In this document: positions 10,287 through 40,019 of the stretch, piece after piece | How positions within the stretch are numbered: the stretch's first letter is position 1 | Layout of the letters: every line of letters starts with the position of its first letter | Position numbers and translations under genes: made by a program | The notes under the pieces: generated by a model | Database searches by the model: none | Told to the model about the DNA's origin: nothing | The model's input: only the letters and a program-made list of their open reading frames with translations | Assembly (NCBI GenBank): GCA_030530875.1 | Contig: JAUMUD010000012.1 | Span: 1 to 56,032 of the forward strand | Direction of reading: 5' to 3' | Length of the DNA stretch: 56,032 nt | DNA from: Corynebacterium sp. | GTDB lineage: Bacteria; Actinomycetota; Actinomycetes; Mycobacteriales; Mycobacteriaceae

Positions 10287-10556
10287 ATGCCGAAGTCAAA
10301 GGTGACGAAGAGCGCCACCCCGGCTCCTTCCGCAGCTTCCACAAGCCGCATTCCGGTGAAGATTAACTCCACCGGTACCCCAATGTGGTACAAGATCATT
10401 ATGTTTGGCCTTATGGTCCTCGGTCTTCTGTGGTTGGTTGTGAACTACTTGGCTGGTCCGCAGATTCCATTCATGCGTGAATTGAATCAGTGGAACTACG
10501 CCATTGGTTTTGGTCTATTCATCCTTGGTTTGGTGATGACCACCGGCTGGCGCTAA
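10287..10556 (+). CDS. crgA: CrgA, cell division membrane protein
   Basis: 89 residues: a Lys/Ser/Ala-rich cytoplasmic N-terminus, two transmembrane helices (about 34-52 and 68-85) and the signature spacing with WYK before helix one and NYAIGFG in helix two. CrgA of actinobacteria bridges FtsZ, FtsQ, FtsI and other septal proteins, and its place near pknB is conserved. A GGTGG site lies 7 bases before the ATG. A strong terminator follows. Confidence 0.93.
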
Positions 10557-10569
10557 AGCCTGCAGGTTA

Positions 10570-10599
10570 GCCCGCTCCGAAAGGAGCGGGCATTTTTTT
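10570..10599 (+). terminator. Terminator of crgA
   Basis: A perfect 9-bp stem GCCCGCTCC/GGAGCGGGC with a GAAA tetraloop, then A and seven T. The last T bases are also the first bases of a DnaA box at 10598. Confidence 0.93.
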
Positions 10600-11571
10600 A
10601 TCCACAGTTTCCACAGGTTTATCCACAGGCTAGAAATTTTTGTAATTACAAAAATTTTTCCGGGCTTCGATCGAGTTTATCCACAGGCCCCTGTGGATAC
10701 TGTGGATAGAGCCATTGTTGCAGGTTATTGGGGGTAAATTTCCCGGAGTGCGGTTTTAGGGTGCAAACACAAGTTAATTACAAGAATTTTTGGGGCTCTG
10801 ATCTGCGATTTTTTGTAATTATGGCGATGAACTGGACTTTTTTAATAATATGCGGGGCCGGGGACTCGTCGGATTTTCCGACAAGATCACAAATTTCACT
10901 AATTCACATCCACCCTGTGAATTGCTGTGGATAAAGTGTAATTACAAAGCTCAGCGCGGGTGAATCCGAGTTTTCACAGCTGTTAATTTTGCAAATCTGT
11001 GCGGTTTTTGGCCACCCCCGATCCCAAAATTGTAATTACAAAAATGATTCAATCCTCGCAGGTCGTCATTTTTGGCATTTTTGATTCACAGTATCCACAG
11101 GTGCCTGTGGATAGAAGGTCCATGAAAGGGCCAAAATCACCAGCATAAACAGTTTTATCCACAGGGAGAAATGTACGTTTACCTGCGATAATGTCGTTTC
11201 TCCACAGATCAATTCACAATTCTGTGATCAATGAGGTTTGCGCTTCACACCCAAAGTTAATTACATCTTTGTAATTAAGCCCGGGTTTTCCACATTCTGT
11301 GATCAATTTTATCCACAGTCTGTGGATAACCCTGTGGATAATGACAAGAATCGGTCTGTGATCAGAGGCTGTGGAAGAAAATTGAAGAGCAGCGAAAGGC
11401 GGATTGAACTTTGGGTTTGAGCGAATTTTTGTGATTTATCCACAGCCTGTGGAAAAAACTGTGGATAAAGTGAATGACAAAAAATTATCCCCAGGCCCGG
11501 TGGATAAATCCATGAGCCTGGGGTCTAATAATTTTTGAGGTGATCCTAAATTTAGAGGAAACTGTGGATAA
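10598..11571. other. DnaA-box cluster, origin-like non-coding block
   Basis: About 950 bp without a credible gene between crgA and the rhomboid gene. Exact TTATCCACA boxes lie at 10598, 10619, 10677, 11155, 11309 and 11436 on the plus strand, and at 10926, 11321, 11333, 11460 and 11563 on the minus strand (lower coordinate given). One-mismatch boxes are at 10692, 10701, 11091, 11106, 11485 and 11499. Pairs face each other (10677/10692, 11309/11321, 11436/11460). Between them are AT-rich tracts (10634-10657, 10836-10852), three exact TGTAATTACA palindromes and three CTGTGATCA motifs. Box density, mixed orientation and AT-rich stretches are the usual marks of an origin or a DnaA-titration locus. 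Which one it is cannot be told from sequence alone. Confidence 0.85.
10634..10657. repeat. 24-bp palindrome centred on TGTAATTACA
   Basis: A perfect palindrome of 24 bp with core TGTAATTACA, flanked by T5 and A5 runs. The same 10-bp core recurs at 10937-10946, 11031-11040 and 28974-28983. Related GTTAATTACA half-matches occur at 10773, 11256 and 39998. It could be a regulator site or an unwinding element. Confidence 0.7.
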
Positions 11572-12235
11572 GACCGGGTTGTGAATAGACCAACCACAGC
11601 ATCACAATAATTAAGGCAATCAGCATAAAATACAGAACGCGTTTGAGGAAGCGAAGGGAGCGTCGAATAGCTAGGAGTAGGACCACGCCGATGCCGAAGC
11701 CGCCCATGTGCCCAGCCCAGGAAACACCGGGGCTAATGAAGGAAAAGGCCACGTTAATGAGCACATAAATAATAGGCGCGCGAAGATCCATGCGCTTGAG
11801 GGCCGCAACACCAATTAGCAGGACCATGAGGCTAAAGATAGCGCCCGAGGCACCCACAGTGGGCACATAGGGCTGTAGATAAGAAACCAGCGCGGAGGAA
11901 CCAAGGCCGCCGGTAAAGAAAGTCCCCGTAAAAATAGCGTGGCCGAGGCTGCGCTCAATCTCACGGCCAATGAGAAAGAGCATGACCGTATTCACAATGA
12001 GATGATCCGCGCCCTGATGGAGGAAGAGAGTGCCGATGGAGCGCAGCGGACCCAGCGGCGAACTTTCCATTGCCGGCATGGAGAGGACCATATGCTCGGC
12101 GAGGCTGGAATTTTGGAGATTATCCACAAAACTATGGGATTGGAGGGCAGTAATTAAATAAGTGACAATAATCAGCAGGCAGATGATGGTGGTTGCGGGT
12201 GCCTGGCGGTAAAGAATTTTCAAAGTTTTAGTCAT
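11552..12235 (-). CDS. Rhomboid family intramembrane serine protease
   Basis: 227 residues from the ATG at 12235. A longer reading from 12313 would run through the ppiA terminator and into ppiA, so it was not used. There are six or so membrane helices. The catalytic serine is in GASGAIFS, the histidine in SWAGHMGGFG, and the conserved Asn is in HLIVNT, so the Ser-His dyad looks intact. It cleaves membrane proteins; the substrate is unknown. No good ribosome-binding site was seen before the start, which follows the ppiA terminator by six bases. The last codons (LIHSF) are written by an exact DnaA box. Confidence 0.88.
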   Translation of the reverse strand: MTKTLKILYRQAPATTIICLLIIVTYLITALQSHSFVDNLQNSSLAEHMVLSMPAMESSPLGPLRSIGTLFLHQGADHLIVNTVMLFLIGREIERSLGHAIFTGTFFTGGLGSSALVSYLQPYVPTVGASGAIFSLMVLLIGVAALKRMDLRAPIIYVLINVAFSFISPGVSWAGHMGGFGIGVVLLLAIRRSLRFLKRVLYFMLIALIIVMLWLVYSQPGLIHSFL

Positions 12236-12240
12236 GATAG

Positions 12241-12268
12241 AAAAAACCCGCACCATTAAGGCGCGGGT
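12241..12268 (-). terminator. Terminator of ppiA
   Basis: On the minus strand ACCCGCGCC and GGTGCGGGT form a 9-bp stem with one G-T pair and a 5-base loop, followed by six T. It lies between ppiA and the rhomboid start, so the rhomboid gene may depend on read-through or on its own promoter. Confidence 0.88.
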
Positions 12269-12284
12269 GTGGGTGAAGGAGGCC

Positions 12285-12812
12285 TTAAGCCTCTTTGATC
12301 TCGATGGACTCAATAACTACTGGGTCAACCGGACGGTCGAAGCGATCCGTTGGGGTGGCGGCAATAGCATCCACAACCTTCTGGGACTCAGGGTCCGTAA
12401 CCTCACCGAAGATGGTGTGGTGATTGTTGAGGTGTGGGGTTGGGGCCACAGTAATGAAGAACTGGGAGCCGTTGGTATTTGGGCCCGCATTGGCCATGGC
12501 CAGCAGATATGGGGTGCCGAAGTTGAGCTCTGGGTGAAACTCATCCTCGAAGGAGTAACCTGGGCCGCCACGGCCGGTACCGGTTGGGTCACCGCCCTGA
12601 ATCATAAAGCCATCAATGACGCGGTGGAAAATAGCACCGTCATAGAATGGGCCCTCGGCGGTCTCCTTGGCATTCTGGGTGAAGTAGTCCTTCGTGCCCT
12701 GGGCAAGACCAATGAAATTAGCCACGGTCACTGGTGCATGGTTACCAAAGAGGTCGATGGAAATATCACCTCGGTTGGTATGCATGATCGCAGTAGCAGT
12801 CTTTTTCGTCAT
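12285..12812 (-). CDS. ppiA: PpiA, cyclophilin-type peptidyl-prolyl isomerase
   Basis: 175 residues from the ATG at 12812. The cyclophilin fold is clear: [14 protein letters not shown] contains the catalytic Arg, FEDE and [10 protein letters not shown] follow, then HHTIFGEV. It catalyses cis-trans isomerisation of prolyl bonds in the cytoplasm, as no signal peptide is present. The start was chosen because a TATGAT -10 lies 7 bases upstream, consistent with a leaderless transcript; a start four codons earlier (12824) lies inside that promoter. It sits between the CwsA-like gene and crgA as in mycobacteria. Confidence 0.93.
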
Positions 12813-24926: not shown

Positions 24927-26108
24927 CTAGCTGGTGAGACGGACTGGCATCAGAAGGTAGATGAAGTCCGAATCGAAGTGGTCAAAATTGCCATCGGCAT
25001 CAGGGCTTGGCAGATCCTGGTCGCCTGGGATCATGACTGCTGGGCGGGTGGACTCGGTAAAGCCGAGGATGACGGAGTCGGAGTCCATGGTGGAGAGACC
25101 ATCCTTGAAGTAGACCGAGTTGAAGGCGGTCTTGATTGGGAGGCCTTCGAGCTGAGCATCGATAGTTTCCACGGAGCTACCGGCTTCATGGGAATCAGTG
25201 GAGAGGCTCAGCACCCCATTTTCGCAGTCAAAGCGGACTGCACCATTGCGGCCACCGACCAAGGAGACGCGTCGAATAGCTGCCTGGAGCTGGCTGATGG
25301 TGAGGCGAACCACGGTGGTGTAGGTCGGTGGGAGCAGGCTCTCGGTCTTAGGGAAATTGGTGTCGAGCATCTTGGTGGTGGAGCGGCGGTTATTGGCCTG
25401 CACACCAAAGAGGCCAGCCTTGTCGATTTCCCCATTAGAACCAGCGCAGAGGGTGATTTCGGCATCGAGGCCGGAGTCCACAATGCGGGTAAATTCTTGG
25501 AGCTTTGCTGCAGGAATGAGCAAATTTCCTTCAATTTCAGGATTCTTTGGGTTCCACTCGAGCTTGCGCACTGCGAGGCGGAAGCGGTCGGTGGCAGCCA
25601 GCGTAATCTCCTTGCCCTTGATGGTCATATTCACACCGGTGAGCATTGGGAGGTTATCATCGCGGGTTGCTGCTGGGGCGACCTGGCCCACGGAGTCCAC
25701 GAAGGTGGAGGCATTGATGGTGCCGATGACCTCTGGGAAATCAGGCAGTGCTGGGTAGTCATCCACGGACAGTGTTGGGAGCTCGAATCGGGAATTGAGC
25801 GATTCGACGACCACAGTGGAGTCGGTGGCCTTGAAGCTAATCTCATCACCTGGGAGGTTGGCGCAGATTTCAGCCATGAGCTTACCGGCAATGGCCACGG
25901 TGCCCTCGGCAGTCACATTGGCATTGACAGTGACGTGGGTAAAGACCTCGAAGTCATAGCCGCAGATGCTGAGCTGCCCACCCGAGGCTTCGATAACCAT
26001 TCCGCGCAGAACAGGCAGTGAAGGCTTATTAGGCAGGCTTCGCGCCACCCAGCTAACTGCGCTGGTCAGTTCATCTTTTGCCACCTCGAAGGCAACTTCT
26101 GATGCCAT
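24927..26108 (-). CDS. dnaN: DnaN, DNA polymerase III sliding clamp
   Basis: 393 residues with three clamp domains; typical features are TVAIAGKLMAEI, LPALPDFPE-like turns and the C-terminal YLLMPVRL that forms the partner-binding pocket edge. The dimer encircles DNA and tethers the polymerase. It is separated from dnaA by 445 bp and followed at once by recF. Confidence 0.97.
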   Translation of the reverse strand: MASEVAFEVAKDELTSAVSWVARSLPNKPSLPVLRGMVIEASGGQLSICGYDFEVFTHVTVNANVTAEGTVAIAGKLMAEICANLPGDEISFKATDSTVVVESLNSRFELPTLSVDDYPALPDFPEVIGTINASTFVDSVGQVAPAATRDDNLPMLTGVNMTIKGKEITLAATDRFRLAVRKLEWNPKNPEIEGNLLIPAAKLQEFTRIVDSGLDAEITLCAGSNGEIDKAGLFGVQANNRRSTTKMLDTNFPKTESLLPPTYTTVVRLTISQLQAAIRRVSLVGGRNGAVRFDCENGVLSLSTDSHEAGSSVETIDAQLEGLPIKTAFNSVYFKDGLSTMDSDSVILGFTESTRPAVMIPGDQDLPSPDADGNFDHFDSDFIYLLMPVRLTS

Positions 26109-26511
26109 GAAGACAGTCCTTTCCCATAGGTCGATTTATGTAATTTCAAAAGTACAAGGTTTATGGGAATTTTTCCATATGGGCAGATTTTTGTAATTTC
26201 GGGTGCCCTATTTCTACTTTAGATCTCTTGGTAAATTACCTTAGTAGTAGGAGTAACCGCTGTGGAAACTGTGGATAAACATGTATTTTCGCAGCAAAAT
26301 CGGGGTTTCGGGGCTGTGAATAGATCTGTGGATGGAGTGTTAAGAAAACTTGTAATTTGTGGATGAATTTTGCGCAGTCTTAATTACACACATGTGATTC
26401 ACAGATCCTGGGGCCTCTATGAACAAAAATTGGGCCTTTGATCACAGATCCACTAACAAGCTGAGCTGCGAAATTACAAAAATTGGCTTTTTTGTGAAGT
26501 CCGTTACATGC
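26109..26511. other. dnaA-dnaN intergenic region, conventional origin position
   Basis: About 400 non-coding bases. It has one exact DnaA box (26270-26278, minus orientation) and weaker TGTGGATGG (26327) and TGTGGATGA (26358). A TGATCACAG (26439-26447) and several TGTAATT-type stretches link it to the block at 10.6-11.6 kb. In actinobacteria this gap is the usual oriC, but its box content here is poor. It must also hold the dnaN promoter. Confidence 0.6.
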
Positions 26512-26536
26512 AAAAAAGCCCGCGCTATGCGCGGGC
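26512..26536 (-). terminator. Terminator of dnaA
   Basis: On the minus strand a perfect 8-bp stem GCCCGCGC/GCGCGGGC with a three-base loop, followed by six T. Confidence 0.92.
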
Positions 26537-26553
26537 CGTCGATAAGCAAAAAT

Positions 26554-28750: not shown

Positions 28751-29388
28751 TACGAACATGGCCGTATAACAGATCTGGCGGATGGTGAAAACAGTGATAA
28801 TGAATCTAGTCGCTGTATTACTTAATATTCAAACCCACGTACATTCGGATATAGCCCAGGAGAGAATTTTTACCCCCATTTTTAGTATCTTCAAGCCCCG
28901 AAAAATTCAGTGTCACGTGACAAAACACTTTTCAAGAGTGCTGGTGAGCAAAATAATGAAAAAATTACAGCTTTGTAATTACAATCTTGTAATTAATCCT
29001 GTGTGGGGGTAAGGGAGTTTATCGAAACAAGCAATCGGACTGAGCCAAATTTCTTAGACGAATGTCTACGATTTTTGTTTGGCCTGCAATTTTCTGAGCG
29101 TGTCGATTTGAGATCTGGGCCTCTTTCCCGTAATCTAGTTGAGTCTACGCATACACAGGAGTCGAGTATCTTCTGATACGGCGACTTTTTAGGGTGTATG
29201 CACTGCGTTGGCCTCTCCTGGCCGCTATCTCGGGTTAGCCGATTTTTATCGCACCAGCATGCTGGTGGGGTGATTTTTTGCGCCTTGGATCGGGAGGAAG
29301 TTTTGCCCTCGCATTTGTACATCGTCAATAAGGCGTGGCTCTCAACCCTCTGAGACCCGCCACTATCTGAAAGTAGGAGTGTTCTACC
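28751..29388. other. dnaA-rpmH intergenic region
   Basis: About 640 non-coding bases between divergent dnaA and rpmH. It has no DnaA box. It does have an exact TTGTAATTACAA (28973-28984) with partial copies on both sides (28962, 28987), a TGTCACGTGACA palindrome (28911-28922) and a perfect 16-bp palindrome CACCAGCATGCTGGTG (29252-29267) followed by a T-run, which may be an attenuator in the rpmH leader. Confidence 0.55.
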
Positions 29389-39914: not shown

Positions 39915-40019
39915 AAGCTCAGAGCTTGGTTATGCGGTGAAATTTGACGGCTGGGCATATGCCCAGGTTGATATAGGTGGCGAACTTGCGCACTGAGGTT
40001 AATTACAAGAATGTGATTA

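Follow-up and report, generated by a model that had tools for sequence, protein, structure and literature searches.

Escherichia coli times DnaA-dependent initiation of replication partly through DARS and datA; by what means Actinobacteria keep DnaA from triggering initiation prematurely or late is, to our knowledge, still open. DARS releases ADP from ADP-DnaA, and datA promotes the hydrolysis of DnaA-ATP. In the excerpts of two sources, box I of DARS lies opposite to boxes II and III, and the head-to-head pair of boxes I and II is given as characteristic (PMC5742627, PMC10380432). The excerpted part of the latter also states that datA needs an IHF site at fixed spacing to its essential boxes (PMC10380432). 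Clusters of DnaA boxes have been reported, according to partial texts, in Streptomyces coelicolor (Smulczyk-Krawczyszyn 2006) and Bacillus subtilis (Okumura 2012). In the E. coli sequences themselves, DARS1 read TTATCCACT-5-TGTGGATAA-3-TGTGTATTA, with the same box order as the crgA-side triplets described below, and the DARS2 region displayed two weaker triplets with 5/3 spacing upstream of mutH; the datA region was also scanned for DnaA boxes. DnaA-box control loci are a known kind, of which the crgA-side locus described here is a candidate member.

The window, i.e., the whole stretch of 56,032 nucleotides analysed here, belongs to a Corynebacterium draft genome (G000) of 2.19 Mb in 67 contigs, 93.9% complete. 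An earlier note on this DNA had pointed to a dense DnaA-box block between crgA and a rhomboid gene (Table 1). With TTATCCACA on either strand taken as the exact box, a recount retrieved the 11 exact boxes that had been claimed, in both orientations, and raised the one-mismatch boxes from six to nine over the same interval. AT-rich sequence and palindromes were found as described (block G+C of 0.41, with repeats as well), and the location between the two genes held, except that the last exact box (11563-11571) fell inside the 3' end of the rhomboid open reading frame. The window encompassed 16 exact boxes against a mean of 0.44 in whole-window dinucleotide shuffles, and shuffles of the block only gave a mean of 0.01 and a maximum of 1 (n = 500). 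Genome-wide there were 84 exact boxes, 39 forward and 45 reverse. The block has 11 of them, and the other 73 listed reach at most three per 1-kb stretch (contig C17).

Table 1. Coordinates of the features of the window discussed in the text
Feature	Position	Strand	Description
crgA	10287..10556	+	NCBIfam NF001194, 130.9 bits (cut-off 102); conserved left neighbour
Terminator-like stem and T-run	10570..10601	+	Stem 10570-10591, 9-bp, tail ATTTTTTTAT; behind crgA, reaches the first box
DnaA-box block	10598..11571	both	11 exact and 9 one-mismatch boxes in 974 bp
Palindrome ATTACAN4TGTAAT	11260..11275	both	0 mismatches; motif preceding box I of the conserved element
DnaA-box triplet (+,-,-)	11309..11341	+	TTATCCACA-gtc-TGTGGATAA-ccc-TGTGGATAA; 3-bp spacers, 0 mismatches; DARS-core-like order
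Second triplet (+,-,-)	11436..11468	+	1 mismatch, 3-bp spacers; shares positions with the best R1 match of the window, a weak one
Rhomboid protease gene	11552..12313	-	Right neighbour, convergent with crgA; matched rhomboid families of NCBIfam below cut-off
dnaA-dnaN gap, most likely oriC	26109..26553	-	Box 26270-26278, then TTACTCCTACTACTA; exact palindrome 26383-26398
Two overlapping exact ATTACAN4TGTAAT	28964..28993		Starts 28964 and 28978; about 0.3 kb upstream of the dnaA open reading frame start

By family search, the block was flanked on the left by genes for a PP2C phosphatase, pknB and crgA, and on the right by those for the rhomboid protein, a peptidyl-prolyl isomerase, gyrA, gyrB, recF, dnaN, dnaA, yidC, a parA-like gene and parB, some of these matches falling below curated cut-offs. 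Relatives of the rhomboid open reading frame adjoined the element in other genomes as well (tblastn).

Both triplets of the block displayed the DARS box order. The likeness to the DARS1 and DARS2 cores lies in three boxes with box I opposite to II and III, boxes I and II head-to-head, in a non-coding location outside oriC. Spacers differed, being 3/3 in the block and 3/3 or 1/4 in its relatives, so that the 5 and 3 bp of E. coli were found in neither; module I of the crgA-side element (see below) moreover has a palindrome before box I, and the element lies near the origin. With datA the block shares the traits of an origin-proximal, non-coding DnaA-box site: it is a cluster outside oriC, about 15 kb from the dnaA-dnaN gap, and datA, by the partial account available, doubles early after initiation. 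The likeness to DARS concerns the box order, and that to datA the boxes and their location; DARS2 additionally has IHF and Fis sites.

The earlier note had proposed to look in related genomes for a conserved block between crgA and the rhomboid gene; a box cluster was present there in many Corynebacterium. The crgA-downstream regions listed comprised 64 distinct ones, and 40 distinct regions (under a slightly different duplicate filter) contained three or more boxes in the 1.5 kb next to crgA. In many Corynebacterium the box order was fixed, box I standing head-to-head with box II and boxes II and III in tandem. Two modules were seen in many of the regions: module II, TTATCCACA-ggc-TGTGGATAA-ctc-TGTGGA.. 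(boxes +,-,-, with 3 bp in both spacers), and, about 125-220 bp further on, module I, AATTACAnnnnTGTag-TTATCCACA-n-TGTGGATAA-nnnn-TGTGGATAA, with spacers of 1 and 4 (2 and 3 in some). The element was inverted relative to crgA in some genomes, and several species lacked a box cluster over the 1.5 kb adjoining crgA, the R1 profile (see below) placing the element further off in some of them.

The triplet pattern TTATCCACA-N3-TGTGGATAA-N3-TGTGGATAA, allowing up to 3 mismatches, occurred at 49 places in 41 of 121 Corynebacterium genomes, and nowhere when reversed as a control; the other 80 genomes had no match at this threshold. Most places (42 of 49, in 38 genomes) were downstream of crgA, within 25 kb. 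The remaining seven were found in G122, G058, G125:C4 (2.6 kb before dnaN), G000:C17, G103:C21 (two) and G137, where crgA was not found. In G122 (C1:2446481-2446513, the distance spanning the contig end of a contig assumed to be circular) and G058 (C1:1401803-1401835), the triplet preceded dnaN by about 2.8 kb, as though the module had been relocated, and at most one one-mismatch box occurred within 1.6 kb after crgA. The place in G000:C17 (11188-11220, or L324:3188-3220) is a further DARS-like triplet, TTATCCACA-ggt-TGTGGATAA-acc-TGTGGATAG, on another contig of the genome that holds the window, with more boxes within 0.5 kb and in a stretch without long open reading frames; the two overlapping triplets of G103:C21 (90980-91024), also away from crgA, are possibly its counterpart.

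In the sister genome G103, a box cluster with module-II triplets was found beside the rhomboid gene (C40:55.2-56.1 kb), 2.6 kb from crgA. It gave short alignments only with the block of the window (the best 84 bp at 83%), GyrA being 96% identical between the two; the boxes have been kept while the spacers between them turned over. The stretch between crgA and this cluster (G103:C40:52570-55200, L181) comprised several reading frames repeating a similar peptide string, possibly a repeat array.

R1, a sequence-only profile of module I (29 sequences, 60 positions), was built from a hand-picked set of which 24 were corynebacterial and five came from Rhodococcoides, Prescottella and Nocardia; near-duplicates and poor matches, among others L021, L065, L085, L088, L125, L126, L130 and L139, were not used. 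Since crgA-side, mostly corynebacterial sequences went into R1, the result that 120 of 121 Corynebacterium genomes matched at E<=0.1 (weak and gap matches included) is partly circular, whereas most of the other genomes of the order and class were independent of the training. Counting partial, weak and oriC matches, 160 of 200 genomes of the order matched at E<=0.1 and 145 of 246 genomes of the class at E<=0.001, the other 101 of the class having no match at the latter threshold. Within a genus subset of 77 genomes (best listed R1 match at E<=9.2e-9), the best match was on the contig of crgA in 75, always on the downstream side of the gene, with 33 within 1 kb, 55 within 3 kb and 72 within 12 kb; six of the 75 ran on the other strand from crgA. 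Measured over the 66 genomes of the genus with both on the same contig, the match was a median of 24.9 kb from dnaN. This count includes two matches in the gap itself; the best matches of G159 (one of the 75) and G100 were in the dnaA-dnaN gap rather than on the crgA side. Many genomes had a second, weaker R1 match in the gap, which indicates that the crgA-side element and the gap share a part.

Among the best-scoring loci of about 3 kb, crgA was present in 29 of 30 for the order and 21 of 21 for the class. The 30 best R1 loci of the genus displayed the rhomboid gene in all 30, ppiA in 29 and crgA in 14. A typical distant locus read ATTACACGCGTGTAA-TTTTCCCCA-g-TGGGGATAA-ctcc-TGTGGATAA, keeping the palindrome and box III, with boxes I and II off the DnaA consensus (e.g., TCATCCCCA, TTTTCCCCA and TGGGGATAA), which makes DnaA binding there less certain. 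In the window, R1 reached only 22.6 bits (11429-11468) and no good module I was present, so that what ties the block to the canonical element is its position and the two module-II triplets (0 and 1 mismatches). Module I in its canonical form has apparently decayed in this lineage and the boxes have multiplied into a dense array, which fits a titration role.

The palindrome that precedes module I, ATTACAN4TGTRAT, was exact at five places of the window: in the block (11260), in the dnaA-dnaN gap (26383), twice upstream of dnaA (28964 and 28978) and at 40002-40017; with up to one mismatch it had 11 matches against a mean of 0.29 in shuffles. It was rare in ten genomes searched whole (0 to 9 exact copies per strand), with zero in the control. 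It occurred in the dnaA-dnaN gap of six of the ten (G000, G089, G090, G127, G135 and G162), as the sole site in G090, G127 and G162, and was absent from G049 and G108; the one copy of G130 was elsewhere than the gap, and one of the two of G103 was in the crgA-side cluster. It was imperfect at many crgA-side elements, and inexact there in most of the ten genomes. These sites suggest a partner protein common to them, and the palindrome could be its binding site, comparable to those of IHF and Fis. MtrA was considered as the binder; its reported motif, in the excerpted text, is a direct repeat (PMC6265350), not obviously the same. Other exact copies in G000 were at C28:40170-40199, C54:8696-8711 and C65:43946-43961, and no box clusters were found near these three.

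We consider it probable (about three in four), from sequence comparison, that the block is the form taken in this genome by a DnaA-assembly site which lies near the origin, outside oriC, and regulates DnaA. Of the roles that the earlier note had offered, titration or reactivation of DnaA gains support from the box architecture and from the conservation beside crgA in the best-scoring loci of the order and class. DnaA would bind the triplets, meeting head-to-head on boxes I and II and being joined by DnaA on box III, as proposed for the E. coli DARS core, and a partner protein would bind the palindrome. The site, mostly 15-55 kb from dnaN in relatives, would double soon after initiation and would then alter the supply of initiation-competent DnaA; such early copying is what suggests a dosage control of DnaA. 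As to the kind of control, the box geometry makes DARS-like reactivation likelier than a datA-like role; the location, together with the clusters reported in the partial texts on S. coelicolor and B. subtilis, makes datA-like titration or inactivation slightly likelier.

The earlier note had also suggested that the block could be the true oriC. Initiation in this lineage would then have shifted by about 15 kb from the dnaA-dnaN gap to the crgA side. The block is indeed the densest exact-box cluster of the draft genome. The gap has the one exact box that had been claimed (26270-26278) plus a single one-mismatch box (26358-26366), fewer than most of the corynebacterial gaps counted. Skew in the window does not contradict such a shift; the skew of a genome's own sequence was uninformative as an origin test both here and in the sister G103. 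The DnaA-trio, a series of repeats adjoining a DnaA box, is the unwinding element of oriC, and in the gap TTATCCACA is followed, after a short spacer, by the trio-like series TTACTCCTACTACTA. A looser trio pattern had falsely matched GATACTGTGG within box repeats and was replaced by a stricter one of our own, which matched in the gap of the window and had no match in the block. Of 67 dnaA-dnaN gaps in relatives, this self-devised pattern matched beside a box in 36 and missed 31; a few of the 67 are not genuine gaps, their loci covering dnaN only in part. Among crgA regions with at least three boxes it matched in 0 of 35. The crgA-side element and the corynebacterial oriC are alike in DnaA boxes, in the palindrome in several genomes and in partial R1 similarity, and differ in these repeats.

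Skew in two relatives bears on the same question. The cumulative G-C curve of G049, which is noisy, stands at 1742 in the bin of dnaN and at 2851 in that of the element. The curve of G154, also noisy, passes -1841 at the element and turns at -2918, immediately ahead of the dnaN bin, although it dips slightly lower (-3005) some 20 kb beyond. In both curves the stretch from dnaN to the element has the sign expected for an origin at dnaN, which fits an origin nearer dnaN than the element. Relatives, moreover, carry boxes at both the gap and the crgA side, and the gap of the window retains box, trio-like repeats and palindrome. The block is probably not oriC, given these repeats and the turn of the noisy curves, and we regard a shifted origin as quite unlikely. 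Partial texts place the predicted oriC of C. urealyticum between dnaA and dnaN (PMC4460590) and use cg0002 as origin marker in C. glutamicum (PMC5461407), the crgA side being addressed in neither excerpt. An auxiliary part of a split origin, in which DnaA on the block would loop to DnaA at dnaA-dnaN and aid unwinding, would account for the palindrome and the R1-like part common to gap and element, and is unlikely all the same: bipartite origins are separated by up to about 2 kb in the excerpted source (PMC4285127), far below the 14-139 kb between dnaN and the element matches outside the gap, of which many are shifted by kilobases, and 6 of 75 elements run on the other strand from crgA.

Together, boxes I and II make up an inverted repeat, and in many genomes the element comes shortly after crgA, as would be expected of an RNA or transcription feature such as hairpins of a crgA 3' untranslated region, a terminator or DnaA-regulated promoters. 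We give this reading very little weight, as a separate terminator-like stem ends at the block edge (a consensus match only, with 1 in the region against 2.4 in shuffles of it), crgA and the rhomboid gene are convergent here, and the third, tandem box is left unexplained. Inverted or kilobase-distant elements in some genomes argue against it as well, and the region had no Rfam family at gathering score and one promoter-like site against a mean of 2.8 in shuffles (sigma-70 consensus only).

Returning to a site that regulates DnaA outside oriC, we tentatively extend it, with rather less than even confidence, to an ancient crgA-side control locus shared by Actinobacteria. Its head-to-head and tandem boxes would reset DnaA together with the partner at the palindrome, and the same partner would mark oriC and, in this genome, the upstream region of dnaA. 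They would form a single circuit, analogous to DARS and datA with IHF and Fis but evolved apart from them. With a candidate control site at a constant place next to crgA in many members of the class, the timing of initiation becomes a testable question in tractable actinobacteria, and the palindrome (ATTACACGCGTGTAAT) offers a bait for a candidate replication regulator.

The 145 genomes of the class with an R1 match (E<=0.001) included none of family f33 g78, whose genomes are Streptomyces-like in that they are rich in chaplin genes (21 with matches). In all 14 f33 g78 genomes taken, the first 260 bp after crgA contained both TTATCCACA and TGTGGATAA boxes, and six f31/f51 genomes had fewer or no such boxes there, except G522. 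In the study of Smulczyk-Krawczyszyn, the S. coelicolor clusters are reportedly called H69, H24 and D78 after cosmids; we take cosmid H69 to be the one that carries crgA, and the Streptomyces counterpart of the crgA-side element may already have been published as the H69 cluster. No description of the crgA-side locus was found among the open-licence literature matches listed, which does not prove its absence in print.

Two minor observations concern the neighbourhood of dnaA. The overlapping palindromes upstream of the gene are perhaps a dnaA operator. The DnaN of the window (24927-26108) was 85% identical to that of the sister G103 and at most 50% identical to those of the other Corynebacterium genomes compared, in contrast to GyrA, which was 77-86% identical to those of other named Corynebacterium.
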